Assembly (NCBI GenBank): GCA_001801215.1
Contig: MGXA01000079.1
Span: 1 to 41,952 of the forward strand
Length of the DNA stretch: 41,952 bases
Direction of reading: 5' to 3'
From: Gallionellales bacterium RIFCSPLOWO2_02_FULL_59_110
GTDB taxonomy: Bacteria > Pseudomonadota > Gammaproteobacteria > Burkholderiales > Gallionellaceae
Shown in pieces: positions 3,574 through 30,991 of this stretch. The position numbers and the translations under genes were made by a program. The stretch's first letter is position 1. Every line of letters starts with the position of its first letter. The notes beneath the pieces were generated by a model. The model did not search any database. It was not told where the DNA came from and was given only the letters and a program-made list of their open reading frames with translations.

Positions 3574-5541
<1,968 letters not shown>

Positions 5542-5705: not shown

Positions 5706-7724
5706 ATGCACTGGCCACAAAGATGGGCGACAATAACGACCGGGACGTTCAACAAGACGCGGAAGCAATTGTTTCGGCCCGTTGGGGCCGAGCACGGCTT
5801 GGCGTTATTGATTTTCGATTGGTGCAATACATTGACCACAATTCATTCTTCGCAATTGAGTTTCTTTGCCAGGCATGCGCCATTCGACCGCATGGAGCGC
5901 GAGCATCTGCTCTGGATGCTGGAACGGATGCAGCTTGCCTATTACGCCAAGGGCGAAGTGATTGCCTCTCCACAGCAAGGCGAGGCGACACGTTTCTTCG
6001 TGATCAAGCAAGGCTTGGTGCGCGGCGCGCGCATTGCCAACACGCCGCAGGATGCTGTGCTGGAGCTCCATGAAGGCGAGTGTTTTCCCGTGGGCGCTTT
6101 GCTGGGGCGGCGCGCGGTGACATCGGAATACCGCGCCGAAGAAGATGCTTTCTGTTTTGAATTGCCGGCATTGCAATTTCGCGAACTGATCGAATTGTCG
6201 GTGGTGTTCAAAGATTTTTGCACGCGCCGCATCGCCGCACTGTTCGAGCAATCCACCCAGGCCATGCAGGCGCAACTGTCGCATGCGTCCACCGAGCAGC
6301 AATCGCTTTCCAGTACGCTGGAAAGCATCATTCGCCGCGCGCCGGTCGCGTGCTGCCCCGACACCACAATACGTTCGGCGTTACAGCAGATGCGCGACGC
6401 GCACCTGGGCTCGATGATTGTGACGGATGCCGCGCAACGGCCACTGGGTATTTTCACGCTGCGCGATTTGCTGGAACGCGTCGTGCTTGCGGACTTGCCC
6501 ATCGACCAGCCGATCGGCAATGCGATGAGCAGCCAGCCCGTCACGTTGCCACCCGGCGCATTGGCCTATGAAGCCGCGATGGTGATGGCCAGGAAAGGCT
6601 TCCGCCATGTACTGGTGACGGAGCAGGACGGCACGCTGCGCGGTATCGTTTCCGAACGCGATCTATTTTCCCTGCAACGCGTCGGGCTGCGACAGCTCAG
6701 CACCTCGCTCAGGCAGGCGGACAGCTCCGCCACCCTGATCTCGCTCGGCAAGGACATACGCGAACTGACCCACAACATGATGGCACAAGGCGTGGCAGCC
6801 GAACAGATCACCCTGCTGATCTCCACGCTGAACGATTTGTTGACATCGCGAATCATCGAGCTGGAATGCATCGCTGCGGGGTTGCAGCATGAAAACGCGG
6901 ACCAGCCCGAGCTGTGCTGGCTGGCACTGGGCTCGGAAGGCAGGTTGGAGCAAACTTTTTATACCGATCAGGACAACGGGATTATTTTCAACGTGCCCGA
7001 AGGCGGGACGGCTGACGCCGTACGCCAGCGCCTGCTGCCGGTAGCAAAGCGCATCAACGAAGCGCTGGCAGAATGCGGTTTTCCGTTATGCGGCGGCGGC
7101 ATCATGGCGAGCAACTCGAAGTGGTGCCTGTCCAGGGAAGAATGGCAGAAAACTTTCGCCGAATGGATCGATCACGGCAGCCCGGAAGACCTGCTCAATG
7201 CCTCGATCTTTTTCGATTTTCGCAGCCTGTACGGCAATGCATCGTTTGCCGCTGCACTGCGCGGCTGGCTGAACAAAAAAATTTCCGGCACACCGCGCTT
7301 CCTGCACCAGATGGCCGCCAACGCATTGCGCAACCGCCCGCCATTGGGCGTAATACGCGATTTCGTCGTCGGGCAGCAACAAACGCTGGACATCAAGCTG
7401 AACGGCACGACCCCCTTTGTCGATGCGGCGCGCATCCTCGGCCTGGCCTGCGGCAGCAGCGCCACCAATACCGTGCAGCGCTTGCGCGAGATCGCCGGCC
7501 CGTTGCACATCGGCACTGCGGAAATCGAGGGCTGGATAGAGGCATTCTATTTTCTCCAGACAATGCGCTTGCTGCATCAGTACGAATGCAGCGCACGGGG
7601 CGCGGCAATGAACAACCACGTCAACCCGGAACAGCTTAACGACCTGGATCGGCGCATCCTCAAGGAGGCCTTCCGGCAGTCGCGCAAGATGCAAAGCCGC
7701 CTGACCATGGAATACCGCCTGTGA
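5706..7724 (+). CDS. cNMP-binding/CBS/DUF294 putative nucleotidyltransferase
   Basis: This is a multidomain regulatory protein of the kind often found beside acs and acetate permeases. Domain order from reading: a cyclic-nucleotide-binding-like domain (about residues 50-165, FFARHAPF...), two CBS motifs (about 205-330), a DUF294 nucleotidyltransferase-like domain containing ALGSEGRLEQTFYTDQDNG (about 415-435; the GS and DxD-type residues resemble GlnD/PII uridylyltransferases), and a helical C-terminal DUF294 domain. The substrate is unknown. ATG 5706 has AAGGA 9 bp upstream, but the first roughly 45 residues look non-coding in composition and that ribosome site lies inside an operator, so the real start may be further in. 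The gene overlaps the exonuclease gene by 4 bp (GTGA), which suggests coupled translation. Confidence 0.88.
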   Translation: MHWPQRWATITTGTFNKTRKQLFRPVGAEHGLALLIFDWCNTLTTIHSSQLSFFARHAPFDRMEREHLLWMLERMQLAYYAKGEVIASPQQGEATRFFVIKQGLVRGARIANTPQDAVLELHEGECFPVGALLGRRAVTSEYRAEEDAFCFELPALQFRELIELSVVFKDFCTRRIAALFEQSTQAMQAQLSHASTEQQSLSSTLESIIRRAPVACCPDTTIRSALQQMRDAHLGSMIVTDAAQRPLGIFTLRDLLERVVLADLPIDQPIGNAMSSQPVTLPPGALAYEAAMVMARKGFRHVLVTEQDGTLRGIVSERDLFSLQRVGLRQLSTSLRQADSSATLISLGKDIRELTHNMMAQGVAAEQITLLISTLNDLLTSRIIELECIAAGLQHENADQPELCWLALGSEGRLEQTFYTDQDNGIIFNVPEGGTADAVRQRLLPVAKRINEALAECGFPLCGGGIMASNSKWCLSREEWQKTFAEWIDHGSPEDLLNASIFFDFRSLYGNASFAAALRGWLNKKISGTPRFLHQMAANALRNRPPLGVIRDFVVGQQQTLDIKLNGTTPFVDAARILGLACGSSATNTVQRLREIAGPLHIGTAEIEGWIEAFYFLQTMRLLHQYECSARGAAMNNHVNPEQLNDLDRRILKEAFRQSRKMQSRLTMEYRL

Positions 7725-25855: not shown

Positions 25856-28800
25856 TCAAAGCGATTCGAGTATTTTCTGCAACCGCTTTACCGATACTAT
25901 CACCGGTGTCTTGAGTTCCTGCGCGAACAGCGACACGCGCAGCTCCTGCAACATCCAGGCAAACTCGTCCATGCGCGGGTCGTGCCTGCCCTGTTGAGCC
26001 TGGCGCAGCTTCTGCCATGCCTGCGACAACGGCTGCATCTGCGCCATGCACTGCGCGTCGCGCACCGGATTGGCGCGCAGTTTCTCGATGCGCAGGCCGA
26101 TTGCTTTGAGGTAACGCGGCACATGCTGGAGGCGCTCGTAGGGCGTCTCGGCGATGAAGCGCTTGTGCAGCAGCCATTCCAGTTGCGCGCGCACATCCTG
26201 AGCTGCCTGGGGGTGGGCCTTGAGTTGCGGCAGGTTCTTCTGCACCGTCTGGTATTCGCTGAGCACATTGCCAACCAGCCGCGCGATTTCCTGCGCGACC
26301 AGAAGCAGGCGATTTTTTGCCTCCTTGCCGCGAGCGGCGAATTCCGCCTCGTTTTCCGGCAGCGGATCGTTCAGGCAGCAGCGCTCGAAGGTCATCTCCA
26401 GTATCTGCCGCTGCAACTCCTGCTGGGTTCCGAACGGCAAGAACAGCATGCCCAAGCGTTGCGCGTCGGGCAGGTTTTTCTCGAGATATTTGACCTGCTC
26501 TTTCAGCAACAGCATGAACAGGCGGCGCAGCCCGCCGCGGTGCGCGGCTTGCGCGGCATCGCGCGTATCGAAGGCGCGCACCGCCACCGCGTCGCCATCG
26601 TCCACCAGCGCGTTGAACAGCGTGACATCCTGTCCGGCGCGTTTCACCAGGCTTGTCTCGGCGAACGCGCCGAAACCCCATGAGGTATAACGCTGCGCCG
26701 CCGCGGCTTCTTGTTTCTCTCCAGCCGCGCCCCCCGTCGCCGCAGCCTTGGCAGACATAGCGCGCGGCGCAAACTCGCCATGCAACTGCGCGAAGTTGCG
26801 CGACATGCCCAATTGCCGCCCGTGCTCGTCGAGCAAGCGGAAATTCATCAGCAGGTGCGGCGGCAGTTGTTCGAGGCGGAACGCATCGAGCGGCACATCG
26901 AGCTGCTTCTGCTCGCGAATGTAGCGCGCCAGCGCCTGCAACAGCGGCGTGTTCGACGGTTGTACCTCGCGGCAGAACGCCGCCGCGAATTCAGGCACCG
27001 GCACCAGGTGGCGGCGCAGCCGCTGCGGCAGCGTCTTGACGAGCTGCGCCGTCTTTTCCGCGAGCAGACCGGGCACCAGCCACTCGCAGCGTGCCGCACT
27101 CACCTGATTGATCAGCGCCAGCGGCACGGCAAGCGTAACGCCATCGTCGTTCTTGCCGGGGGAAAAGTGGTAGCCCAGCGCGAAGCCGACGTTGTCGATG
27201 CGCAACTGCGGCGGGAACTGGTCGGTGGTGATGCCCGCCGCCTCGTGGCGCATCAGGTCATCCTTCTTCAGGTACAGCAGCTGCGCATTGCCGCGCTCCG
27301 CCTCCTTGCGCCAGTGCTCGAAAGCCGCGCCGTTGTGGATGCCCGCAGGGATGCGGCTGTCATAAAAGGCGAAAATCAGCTCGTCGTCTACCAGCACGTC
27401 TGGGCGGCGCGCCTTGTGCTCCAGCGCCTCGATGTCGGCGATCAGTTTCCGGTTGTGCGCGAAGAACGGCGCTTGCGTATTGAATTCGCCGCCGACCAGC
27501 GCCTGGCGGATGAATACTTCGCGCGACTCGGAGGGGTTCATCGGGCCGAAATGCACGCGCTTTTTCGGGTTGAGGACAAGCCCGAAAAGCGTGCTGCGCT
27601 CAAAGGCTGAGACTTGCGCCGCTTTTTTCTCCCAGTGCGGGTCGTAATAATGCCGCTTGATAAGATGTGCGCCCGTTTCTTCCAGCCATTCCGGCTCGAT
27701 GCGCGCCACGCAGCGCGCATACAGGCGGTGTGTCTCGACGAGTTCGCCAGCCATCACCCACTTCGCGCCCTTCTTCGCCAGCACCGAATTGGGCGCGATA
27801 AAAAACTTGATGCCGCGCGCACCGAGGTATTCGTTGCCCTCCACGCTCCTCATGCCGATATTGCCGAGCAGACCGCACAGCAGCGCCTTATGCATCTGTT
27901 CGTAGGTCGCGGGCTGCCCAGAAGAAATTTTTTCGTTCTCGCGCATCCCCATCTCCGCGACCTGCGCGTGCAACTGCTGGTGCAGCTCGCGCCATTCGCG
28001 CAGGCGTAACGGGGACAGGAAATTTTTCCGGCATTCCTCGGCCAGCAGGCGGTTGGATTTTTTGTGCGCCACCGCCTGCTCGAACCATGCCCACAGCTTC
28101 AGGTAAGCCAGGAAGTCGGAGCGCTCGTCGGCAAAGCATTTGTGCGCGGCATCCGCGGCCTCCTGCCGGTCAAGCGGGCGTTCGCGCGGGTCCTGCACCG
28201 ATAGCGCGCTGGCGATAACGAGGATTTCCGTCAGGCAGTGGTACTGCCTTCCGGCCAGGAGCAGGCGCGCAATCTTCGGGTCGAGCGGCAGCTTGGCGAG
28301 TTCATGCCCGAGACCGGTGAGGCGCTGCGCCTCATCAATTGCGCCGAGTTCGGCGAGCAACTGGTAGCCATCGGCGATCATGCGCGGAGTGGGCGGCTCC
28401 AGAAAAGGGAATTCGGCGATTTCGCCAAGCTCCAGCGCGCTCATGCGCAGGATCACGGTCGCCAGCGACACGCGGAAAATCTCCGGGTCGGTATATTCGG
28501 CGCGCTGCAAGAAATCCGCCTCGTCGTACAGCCGGATGCACACGCCGCTCATCACCCGACCGCAACGCCCGGCGCGCTGGCTGGCGGCGGCGCGCGAAAT
28601 TTTCTCGATATGCAACTGCTCGACCTTCTGGCGGATGCTGTAGCGGTTCACCCGCGCCAGCCCGCAGTCGATCACGTAGCCGATGTTCGGCACGGTCAGC
28701 GAGGTCTCCGCGACATTGGTCGCCAGCACCACGCGACGCTGCCCGCCGGTCTTGAACACCCGATCCTGCTCCGCCGCCGACAGCCGCGCAAACAGCGGCA

Positions 28801-29632
28801 GCACTTCAATGCCTCTTGGATGGTGCTTGCGCAACGCCTCCGCCGTATCGCGTATTTCGCGCTCGCCGGGCAGGAACACCAGCACATCACCCCTTAAACC
28901 GCCTGCCGCCAGTTCGTCCAGCGCGCTACTCACCGCCTGCGGCACGTCCTGCGCCTCACCTTCATCGCTGACCTGCAACGGGCGATAGCGCACTTCGATA
29001 GGGTAGCTACGTCCCGACACTTCAATTACCTGCGCATCGAAATGCTTGGCGAAGCGATCCGCATCGAGCGTGGCCGAGGTGATGATGAGCTTGAGGTCGG
29101 GGCGGCGCGGCAATAACTGCTTCAGGTAGCCGAGCAGGAAGTCGATATTGAGCGAACGCTCGTGTGCCTCGTCGACGATCAGCGTGTCGTAATTCTTCAG
29201 CAGCGGGTCACCGTGAATTTCCGCGAGCAGAATGCCGTCGGTCATCAGTTTGATGCTGGTATCGGGCGACACCTTGTCGTGGAAGCGCACCTTGTAGCCG
29301 ACCGCGCCGCCGAGTTCGGTCTTCAGCTCGAACGCGACGCGTGACGCCACCGAGCGCGCCGCCACGCGGCGCGGCTGAGTGTGGCCGATGCAACCCCGGA
29401 TGCCGCGCCCCAACGCCAGGCAGATTTTCGGCAACTGGGTGGTCTTGCCCGAGCCGGTCTCGCCGCAAACGATGACTACCTGATTGCCTTCGATCGCGCG
29501 CGCCACATCTTCGCGCTTGCCAGTTACCGGCAAATCTGCGGGAAATTCGAGCGCGGCAAGCGAATCGAGCCGCGCCTTGCGACGCAAGGCGCTTTTGGAC
29601 AAGGCGATGTGGGCGGTCAAGTGATACTCCAT
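25856..29632 (-). CDS. hrpA: ATP-dependent RNA helicase HrpA (DEAH box)
   Basis: This is a large DEAH-box helicase acting on RNA in translation and mRNA handling. Motifs in order: GETGSGKTTQLPK (I, about residue 60), TQPRRVAARSVASR (Ia), VDEAHERS (II), ITSATLDADRF (III), VFLPGEREIRDT (IV), TNVAETSLTVPNI (V) and QRAGRCGR (VI). HA2/OB domains and a DUF3418-type C-terminus follow. With ATG 29632 it has 1258 residues, near family length. A TTG at 29641 is the other option, and neither has a clear ribosome site. The start directly abuts a palindrome plus T-rich run at 29632-29664. The stop lies 12 bp before the IS remnant, so the C-terminus may be almost but not quite original. Confidence 0.93.
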   Translation of the reverse strand: MEYHLTAHIALSKSALRRKARLDSLAALEFPADLPVTGKREDVARAIEGNQVVIVCGETGSGKTTQLPKICLALGRGIRGCIGHTQPRRVAARSVASRVAFELKTELGGAVGYKVRFHDKVSPDTSIKLMTDGILLAEIHGDPLLKNYDTLIVDEAHERSLNIDFLLGYLKQLLPRRPDLKLIITSATLDADRFAKHFDAQVIEVSGRSYPIEVRYRPLQVSDEGEAQDVPQAVSSALDELAAGGLRGDVLVFLPGEREIRDTAEALRKHHPRGIEVLPLFARLSAAEQDRVFKTGGQRRVVLATNVAETSLTVPNIGYVIDCGLARVNRYSIRQKVEQLHIEKISRAAASQRAGRCGRVMSGVCIRLYDEADFLQRAEYTDPEIFRVSLATVILRMSALELGEIAEFPFLEPPTPRMIADGYQLLAELGAIDEAQRLTGLGHELAKLPLDPKIARLLLAGRQYHCLTEILVIASALSVQDPRERPLDRQEAADAAHKCFADERSDFLAYLKLWAWFEQAVAHKKSNRLLAEECRKNFLSPLRLREWRELHQQLHAQVAEMGMRENEKISSGQPATYEQMHKALLCGLLGNIGMRSVEGNEYLGARGIKFFIAPNSVLAKKGAKWVMAGELVETHRLYARCVARIEPEWLEETGAHLIKRHYYDPHWEKKAAQVSAFERSTLFGLVLNPKKRVHFGPMNPSESREVFIRQALVGGEFNTQAPFFAHNRKLIADIEALEHKARRPDVLVDDELIFAFYDSRIPAGIHNGAAFEHWRKEAERGNAQLLYLKKDDLMRHEAAGITTDQFPPQLRIDNVGFALGYHFSPGKNDDGVTLAVPLALINQVSAARCEWLVPGLLAEKTAQLVKTLPQRLRRHLVPVPEFAAAFCREVQPSNTPLLQALARYIREQKQLDVPLDAFRLEQLPPHLLMNFRLLDEHGRQLGMSRNFAQLHGEFAPRAMSAKAAATGGAAGEKQEAAAAQRYTSWGFGAFAETSLVKRAGQDVTLFNALVDDGDAVAVRAFDTRDAAQAAHRGGLRRLFMLLLKEQVKYLEKNLPDAQRLGMLFLPFGTQQELQRQILEMTFERCCLNDPLPENEAEFAARGKEAKNRLLLVAQEIARLVGNVLSEYQTVQKNLPQLKAHPQAAQDVRAQLEWLLHKRFIAETPYERLQHVPRYLKAIGLRIEKLRANPVRDAQCMAQMQPLSQAWQKLRQAQQGRHDPRMDEFAWMLQELRVSLFAQELKTPVIVSVKRLQKILESL

Positions 29633-29664
29633 AAAAGACAAGGGACTCGATCGATCGAGTCCCT
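29632..29664 (-). terminator. 24-bp perfect palindrome with T-rich tail, before hrpA
   Basis: AGGGACTCGATC and its exact complement form a perfect palindrome (29641-29664). On the minus strand it is followed by TGTCTTTT. It fits an intrinsic terminator for the small gene at 29727-29798. It also abuts the hrpA start codon, so it could act as an attenuator or block translation initiation of hrpA. Confidence 0.6.
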
Positions 29665-29726
29665 CATCCGAACTCCGCCCCCCGTACCGGAGATCGGAGC
29701 TGTCATTCGCTATGCTATACCTGCGC

Positions 29727-29798
29727 TTACTTCACAAACATGATAACGAGCGCGACAAGGACAACTACGACAGCGATAGGCAGCATTGTTTCAGCCAT
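29727..29798 (-). CDS. 23-residue hydrophobic membrane peptide
   Basis: This tiny gene is too short for usual gene calling. It encodes MAETMLPIAVVVVLVALV then IMFVK and a TAA stop: a short acidic head, one membrane-spanning helix of about 17 residues and a terminal Lys. Support comes from signals on both sides. GAAGG lies 8 bp before the ATG, a near-consensus promoter (TTGACA, 17 bp, TATTGT) is about 37 bp upstream of it, and a palindrome with T-rich tail lies 63 bp downstream. The predicted transcript is about 195 nt. I do not recognise a family. It could be a small bioenergetic or stress membrane peptide, a type I toxin-like peptide, or an sRNA with an incidental frame. It lies between hrpA (same strand) and hrcA (divergent). 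Confidence 0.6.
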   Translation of the reverse strand: MAETMLPIAVVVVLVALVIMFVK

Positions 29799-29834
29799 GA
29801 TATGAACCTTCGGGTGATTGATAACGGGACGCGC

Positions 29835-29863
29835 ACAATATCAACTGTATATGTTGGTGTCAA
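29835..29863 (-). promoter_or_regulatory. Near-consensus sigma-70 promoter of the 23-residue gene
   Basis: On the minus strand TTGACA (29863-29858) is followed by exactly 17 bp and then TATTGT (29840-29835, four of six). Predicted start is near 29828, giving a 30-nt leader. This is the best promoter by eye in the window. Confidence 0.72.
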
Positions 29864-29971: not shown

Positions 29972-30991
29972 ATGCTCAACGAACGCGCACAAACCCTGCT
30001 CAAGACTCTGGTGGAACGCTACATCAGCGACGGCCAGCCGGTCGGTTCGCGCGCGCTGCAACAATACTCCGGGCTGGAAATCAGTTCGGCGACCATCCGC
30101 AACGTGATGGTCGATCTGGAAGAGATCGGCCTGGTCAGCAGCCCGCACACCTCGGCGGGGCGCATCCCGACCGGCTTGGCTTACCGGCTGTTCATCGACA
30201 CCATGCTGGTGGCCAAACCTCTGGACAACTCGTATGTGCAGCGCATGGAAAGCAAGTTGCAGCCGGACAACCCGTCGCGCCTGATCGCGCAAGCCTCCAG
30301 CATCCTTTCCGAACTGACGCAGTTCGCCGGTGTGGTCGCCACGGCCAAACGCAGCGCAGCCGCCGTGCGCCAGATCGAGTTCCTGCGGCTCGGAGAAAAA
30401 CGCGTGTTGCTGATCATCGTGATGCCGGACGGCGAGGTGGAAAACCGCGTGCTGCTGATGGAAAAGGACTACCCGCAGTCGCAGCTCACCGAGGCGGGCA
30501 ACTTCCTCACGCGGAATTACGGCGGTTGCAGCTTCTCGCAGATCCGCGAGAAACTGCGCGGCGAACTGCGCGAATTGCATCAGGATATGAGCGCGCTAAT
30601 GGCGGCGGCGCTCGCCGCTGGCGACGAGGCGATGGCGAAAAAAGCCGAGGACTACGTCATCAGCGGCGAACGCAACCTGCTGCATGTGCAGGATCTGTCC
30701 GCGGACATGAACCGCCTGCGCGGCCTGTTCGGCCTGTTCGAGCAGAAAACCGAATTGCTGCAACTGATGGAAGCGGGGCGCAGGGGACAGGGCATTCACA
30801 TTTTCGTCGGCGGCGAATCCGGCCTCGCTTCCCTGGACGAGTGCAGCGTCATCGCCGCGCCCTATTCCGTCGGCAGCCAGGTGGTCGGCACGCTCGCCGT
30901 GGTCGGCCCGAAACGCATGGATTACCAGCGCGTTATCCCCATCGTGGACATCACCGCCAAGCTGCTGGGCAACGCGCTGTCGCAGACATGA
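29972..30991 (+). CDS. hrcA: Heat-inducible transcription repressor HrcA
   Basis: This repressor of chaperone genes binds CIRCE elements and is tuned by GroEL. The 339-residue product has the expected layout. The N-terminal winged helix ([21 protein letters not shown] and [18 protein letters not shown]) is followed by [11 protein letters not shown], then the GAF-like and dimerisation region, ending in [21 protein letters not shown]. No CIRCE palindrome (TTAGCACTC with its complement) was found upstream or elsewhere in the window, so its targets lie outside. It is followed 97 bp later by hemH, with a GATTAC-unit inverted repeat in between. No strong ribosome site precedes ATG 29972. Confidence 0.95.

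Follow-up and report, generated by a model that had tools for sequence, protein, structure and literature searches.

A gene of 23 codons on the minus strand of the window, the 41,952-nucleotide stretch of DNA that we analyzed, is very probably real and conserved in some iron-oxidising Gallionellaceae, as judged by sequence comparison. Of 158 genomes in this one family, many of them incomplete, 11 carry the unit, with 12 copies altogether in three genera (8 of 76 genomes in g1, 1 of 34 in g26 and 2 of 4 in g36). We hold it an even prospect that this single gene forms an autonomous transcription unit and encodes a small protein of the inner membrane, probably one that serves a larger membrane complex as a helper helix. 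Such genes would add a family of micropeptide genes to neutrophilic iron oxidisers, in which a 23-codon gene becomes recognisable through the conservation of its whole transcription unit.

Layout of the putative transcription unit

Every element claimed by the initial annotation is present on the minus strand: a TTGACA/TATTGT promoter, GAAGG ahead of an ATG, a 23-residue frame, and a perfect palindrome with a T-rich tail (Table 1). The promoter matches the consensus at 10 of 12 positions and has a TGn extended -10. In the window, the terminator stem has a folding energy of -18.7 kcal/mol; this hairpin (29664-29641) is absent from the list of a separate terminator scan that used a rule of its own. 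Support for a further hairpin between the stop codon and the terminator is weak. The downstream hrpA gene probably starts with TTG at 29620, after GGAG.

Table 1. Positions of the unit and its neighbors in the window
Feature	Position	Strand	Basis or remark
-35 hexamer TTGACA	29858..29863	-	sequence and alignment
-10 TATTGT	29835..29840	-	17-nt spacer from TTGACA
Extended -10 TTGATATTGT	29835..29844	-	TTGATA 13 nt downstream of TTGACA
GC-rich discriminator GCGCG	29830..29834	-	directly 3' of -10; alignment
5' leader block TTATCAATCA, consensus TTATCAATTA	29815..29824	-	alignment; conserved
Shine-Dalgarno GAAGG	29807..29811	-	8 nt upstream of ATG
sORF, 23 aa, MAETMLPIAVVVVLVALVIMFVK	29727..29798	-	ATG 29798, TAA end 29727
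Predicted hairpin, stop codon to terminator interval	29671..29701	-	single-sequence fold
Perfect 24-nt palindrome AGGGACTCGATCGATCGAGTCCCT, terminator stem GGGACTCG/CGAGTCCC	29641..29664	-	sequence
T-rich terminator tail TGTCTTTT	29633..29640	-	sequence
hrpA-type helicase, downstream neighbor	25856..29620	-	Pfam DEAD, Helicase_C, HA2, OB_NTP_bind, DUF3418
hrcA repressor gene, divergent neighbor	29972..30991	+	Pfam

A composite scan that required a promoter with at least 9 of 12 matches, a Shine-Dalgarno sequence, a frame of 15 to 45 aa, a stem of at least 8 and a T-rich tail within 150 nt returned one case on both strands of the window and none in 60 dinucleotide shuffles. This rule was written after the case had been seen, and conservation is therefore the better proof. 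In the collected loci, a non-random sample, a composite scan returned nine of the units and no other matches.

Three features of the unit bear mention. TTGATA of the -10 region and TATCAA of the leader form an inverted repeat (29815-29844 in the window) that recurs with varying spacing in several units and could be an operator. GC-rich discriminators are associated with stringent control. The terminator stem CGAGTCCC (within 29641-29664) is nearly invariant between units and resembles the 3' half of a tRNA T-arm.

Copies in other genomes and their neighborhoods

A search with a single peptide returned two weak matches, both in genome G018 (E 0.09 and 0.3); in both copies the unit lies immediately upstream of hrpA, and its promoter and terminator match those of the window. 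As this search was weak and reached G018 only, a profile was needed. Across 299 genomes, a profile of three peptides added G026, G067, G064 and G173, the last in another genus, at E ≤3.7e-8, and G081 at E 0.004. At E 0.05, an eight-row profile matched 8 of the 158 family genomes, seven of them profile members (E ≤9.6e-10) and one, G072, a nonmember (E 6.7e-5). Flanking DNA led to three more units. The palindrome, sought in 16 genomes, was found in nine, of which eight have the unit, including G017, whose unit encodes MSNVISMVVVSIPLLIIAFIIFFGK; in the ninth, G007, the palindrome occurs by itself. R1, a sequence-only model built on promoter and leader, recovered 10 units at E ≤3.1e-14, all training members, and G117 at 0.013, where reading revealed MDMYLSMVPIVVAFVVMLIAALIF with leader and terminator. 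A model of the full unit (R2) gave G130, outside its training set, at E 1.6e-9; this unit encodes MDMYLSMVPFVVAFVVILIAALTF. G117 and G130 belong to the same genus and differ at 3 of 24 residues, so they are not independent.

A number of weak matches were read individually. An order-wide profile search of 399 genomes returned the window's own match and four weak ones (E 0.005-0.04), none of them a unit. Eight loci with weak profile matches (L083, L084, L086, L087 and L101-L104) held no unit; the weak matches L071 and L073 proved to be units. Among the 21 of 29 weak R1 matches that were read (L144-L164), only L147 (G117) is a unit, as is only L175 (G130) among the R2 matches read outside the training set (L175-L178, L180 and L182). 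R2 also matched G031 (E 1.5e-8) and G007 (2.7e-5) in the terminator region alone, with the frame absent. At these loci (L176 in G031; L124 and L131 in G007) the GGGACTCG..CGAGTCCC palindrome adjoins a putative Mg-chelatase-like gene. Plasmid and viral searches for the unit found none.

We also scanned 84,980 species genomes with a DNA pattern that combined the promoter with MLPIA. Eight stretches matched, and all eight contain the unit. The carriers are Candidatus Ferrigenium straubiae KS03, Ca. F. bremense BP06, three Gallionella sp., Gallionellaceae bacterium UBA6222 and one Nitrosomonadales MAG, matched twice. When the unit's initial 150 nt are compared, KS03 equals G026, BP06 equals G081, the three Gallionella sp. 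equal G072, G064 and G067, UBA6222 equals G173, and the Nitrosomonadales MAG equals the two copies of G018. The pattern demands the MLPIA type and the promoter and is thus blind to the G017 and g36 types, whose confinement to the family is consequently established only within the 399 genomes. The isolation of one carrier, Ca. F. straubiae of culture KS, is reported in PMC12622760, which makes transcription, translation and partner directly testable.

Promoter, leader and terminator are conserved to the same degree as the frame. TTGACA and TTGATA are identical in 10 aligned units and degenerate in the two g36 units (TTGCAT in place of TTGACA), and the GC-rich discriminator is kept in the alignment except in G017. 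In the leader, CAAT and an A two bases further are invariant in 11 aligned rows; G130, outside this alignment, has TTTAATTTAATTA in place of the leader block. The aligned units have a Shine-Dalgarno core, AAGG or GAGG, and so does G130. Promoter and frame persist across differing gene neighborhoods, as does, in 11 of 12 copies, the terminator core GGACTC/GAGTCC, which was not found within 220 nt past the stop in G173. This joint conservation of frame, promoter, Shine-Dalgarno sequence and terminator supports the initial annotation, which proposed either a small membrane protein not yet described or an sRNA that contains a frame.

The order in the window is hrcA, unit, hrpA. The unit follows rpoD and tRNA-Met and precedes hrpA in G026 and in one G018 copy (G018b), with a HicB-family gene added ahead of the unit in the other (G018a) and in G067. 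In G072 and G081 it sits in the opposite orientation between tRNA-Met/rpoD and hrpA, and in G064 it lies between nth and hrpA. The G017 unit has an Alginate_exp-family gene on one side and tRNA-Tyr/Gly/Thr-tuf on the other, and a divergent hrpA is 2.9 kb away; the G173 unit is beside a pyrC-like gene, and G117 and G130 have other neighbor genes. Pfam backs the labels sigma-70 (rpoD), endonuclease III (nth), EF-Tu (tuf), amidohydrolase (pyrC-like) and HicB; the finer gene names are our assumption. Of the two neighbors suggested for relatives, hrpA adjoins 8 of 12 units, and hrcA only that of the window among the hrcA loci compared. The hrcA neighborhood is not conserved in the genus and is therefore useless as a synteny anchor. 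Of 61 genomes searched for hrcA, 16 gave no match (12 of 45 good assemblies), and the gene upstream of it differs widely within the genus.

The unit occurs once per genome except in G018, where its two copies lie beside two hrpA matches (assembly completeness 79%, contamination 3%). The second of these matches (G018:C52:13315-13982) is split across two frames and is either a broken gene or an assembly error. At L098 (~4918-5496) and L096 (~5900-6540), the inversion of the unit between rpoD/tRNA-Met and hrpA, relative to G026, G018 and G067, is an apparent in-place flip. The HicB-family gene that separates tRNA-Met from the unit in G018a and G067 lies at L095:4756-5094(-) and L100:1193-1531(+). 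Upstream of the promoter in these two copies, a stretch ending in GACGACCCACCA (reverse strand of L034) resembles a tRNA 3' end; ARAGORN found no tRNA there, and the stretch may be a scar left by an integration long ago.

On an hrpA tree of 36 rows (27 of the genus), the eight labeled rows require two label changes versus 7.3 when shuffled, and 14% of bootstraps require one. G017 is unlabeled, and G173, G117 and G130 are off the tree, so it does not distinguish vertical inheritance with losses from transfer.

Coding signature and the predicted peptide

The frame is open in all 12 copies; the broken frames in close relatives that would have spoken against a gene were not seen, and the majority of relatives lack a copy altogether as opposed to having a broken frame. 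Nine of the copies were found mainly via the frame, which biases them toward intact frames, yet G017, G117 and G130, found through flanking DNA, each have an open hydrophobic frame with the motif described below.

Coding tests drew on nine of the 12 frames, with 20 codons from each and near-copies included, with synonymous sites near saturation (pS 0.52, pN 0.26). The pN/pS of the real frame was 0.49, the lowest of six (next 0.64); with five less alike sequences it was 0.42, again the lowest (next 0.57). The synonymous-biased conservation suggested as a check is hence present, by a modest margin. No stops occur in the real frame, and none either in one antisense frame of the five-sequence set. 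Summed residue variety was 49 versus a column-shuffled mean of 62, with none of 2000 shuffles as low. Over 11 rows, 9 of 14 invariant in-frame columns are T at the second codon position, as in hydrophobic codons. Together, these data describe a conserved short frame under coding constraint, open in 12 units, with the constraint shown by a modest margin on nine.

The peptides are 22 to 25 aa long, and all 12 combine [T/S]-M-[L/V] with an uncharged hydrophobic stretch. MLPIA occurs in 9 of 12; downstream of the motif, the peptide is a generic hydrophobic stretch. The acidic head and Lys end noted initially apply to the window peptide but do not extend to the family: 4 of 12 peptides have an acidic residue and 8 of 12 a C-terminal Lys, so neither is family-defining. 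By hydropathy only, each of nine units examined has one hydrophobic stretch of membrane-spanning length (best 14-residue Kyte-Doolittle mean 3.21-3.89), and the peptide probably spans the membrane.

For the nine peptides searched, Pfam, NCBIfam and PDB gave no significant match; the best E value in PHROGs was 0.15. We considered FixS/CcoS (PF03597), to which seven of nine members show a weak similarity below the cut-off (best E 0.083), and rejected this identity: the window peptide scored 13.1 bits versus a cut-off of 23.1, and true FixS proteins above the cut-off are encoded elsewhere in 9 of 11 genomes searched, including that of the window.

Candidate roles

In the reading that we favor, the sigma-70-like extended -10 promoter, Shine-Dalgarno leader, frame of 22 to 25 codons and hairpin terminator, which are kept together in part of the Gallionellaceae, would yield an mRNA of ~195 nt. 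Its peptide may insert into the cytoplasmic membrane as a single helix, perhaps oriented N-out/C-in when it is Lys-terminated, and the conserved N-terminal [T/S]-M-[L/V] would pack against, tune or stabilise a larger membrane protein. This putative role is modeled on the small single-helix subunits of oxidases and transporters. CydX, KdpF and AcrZ are such single-helix accessory proteins of membrane complexes; the unit in the window, by contrast, has no genes of a known complex next to it. Subunit IIa of B-type oxidases (PMC3128077) is likewise small with one hydrophobic helix, but the A. aeolicus IIa is longer, at 41 aa. Counting against an accessory protein are the low number of carriers (11 of 158), the generic stretch past the motif, the modest coding margin and the equal conservation of promoter, leader and terminator, which would suit an RNA function too.

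Alternatively, the peptide might be a type I toxin-like membrane peptide, kept in check by an antisense or trans-acting RNA and able, once released, to depolarise the membrane. We consider this unlikely. The peptides are well below the 60 aa that bound hydrophobic type I toxins, and in length, hydrophobic helix and C-terminal cation (8 of 12) they resemble the membrane-associated toxins IbsC (19 aa) and ShoB (26 aa), as given in PMC8309996. Patchy distribution and changing neighborhoods suit such modules, and G018a and G067 have a HicB-family gene just upstream. However, none of the antisense promoter-like sites reading over the frame is common to the nine loci scanned, a difference from IbsC/ShoB-type toxins to which the conserved N-terminal motif adds; four of the nine have a weak (8-9/12) antisense site in the leader, reading away from the frame. 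The start signals are strong, and genomes other than G018 hold a single copy.

We regard as equally improbable a dual-function or mainly regulatory RNA, in which the leader, 3' hairpins and terminator would pair with targets and the peptide would be secondary. Leader and terminator stem are conserved as much as the frame, and G007 and G031 have the palindrome but no frame. With the terminator included, the window RNA has a more stable fold than its shuffled versions (z -2.5; one in 200 equally good), and the stop-to-terminator stretch reaches z -2.3 to -4.0 against mononucleotide shuffles in 4 of 10 units (G173, G072, G017 and G081). In the other six, including the window (z -0.5), the same stretch gives z 0 to -1.4. 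A consensus fold of eight sequences has a slightly unfavorable covariation term (+0.41), with two-sided changes in 2 of 24 pairs. Rfam has no match in the window and no family at gathering score (one chance-level match, E 3.8), and the coding signature of the frame also argues against a mainly regulatory RNA.

Quite unlikely, in our estimate, is a micropeptide cassette specific to the lineage of iron-oxidising Gallionellaceae that relocates or flips whole, keeps its promoter, motif and near-invariant terminator, and combines a membrane peptide with RNA action.

Leader-peptide attenuators place a short frame and then a terminator ahead of a gene, as the unit does in the window, where the terminator extends to the start region of hrpA. 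A leader peptide with attenuator of hrpA is nevertheless very unlikely because only six of 12 units point co-directionally into hrpA, two (G072 and G081) are divergent from it, and the remaining four do not have it as a neighbor: the G017 unit is distant and divergent, and no hrpA lies within the 8.0 (G173), 3.0 (G117) and 3.2 kb (G130) examined. Moreover, among 30 hrpA loci scanned, three of which (L037, L052 and L053) offered <450 bases upstream, a TMLPIA frame precedes the gene only in the window and G018a. Finally, a chance assembly or decaying intergenic relic, which the very short frame and its absence from 147 of 158 family genomes might suggest, is extremely unlikely given 12 conserved copies in three genera and the empty composite scans of shuffled sequence.
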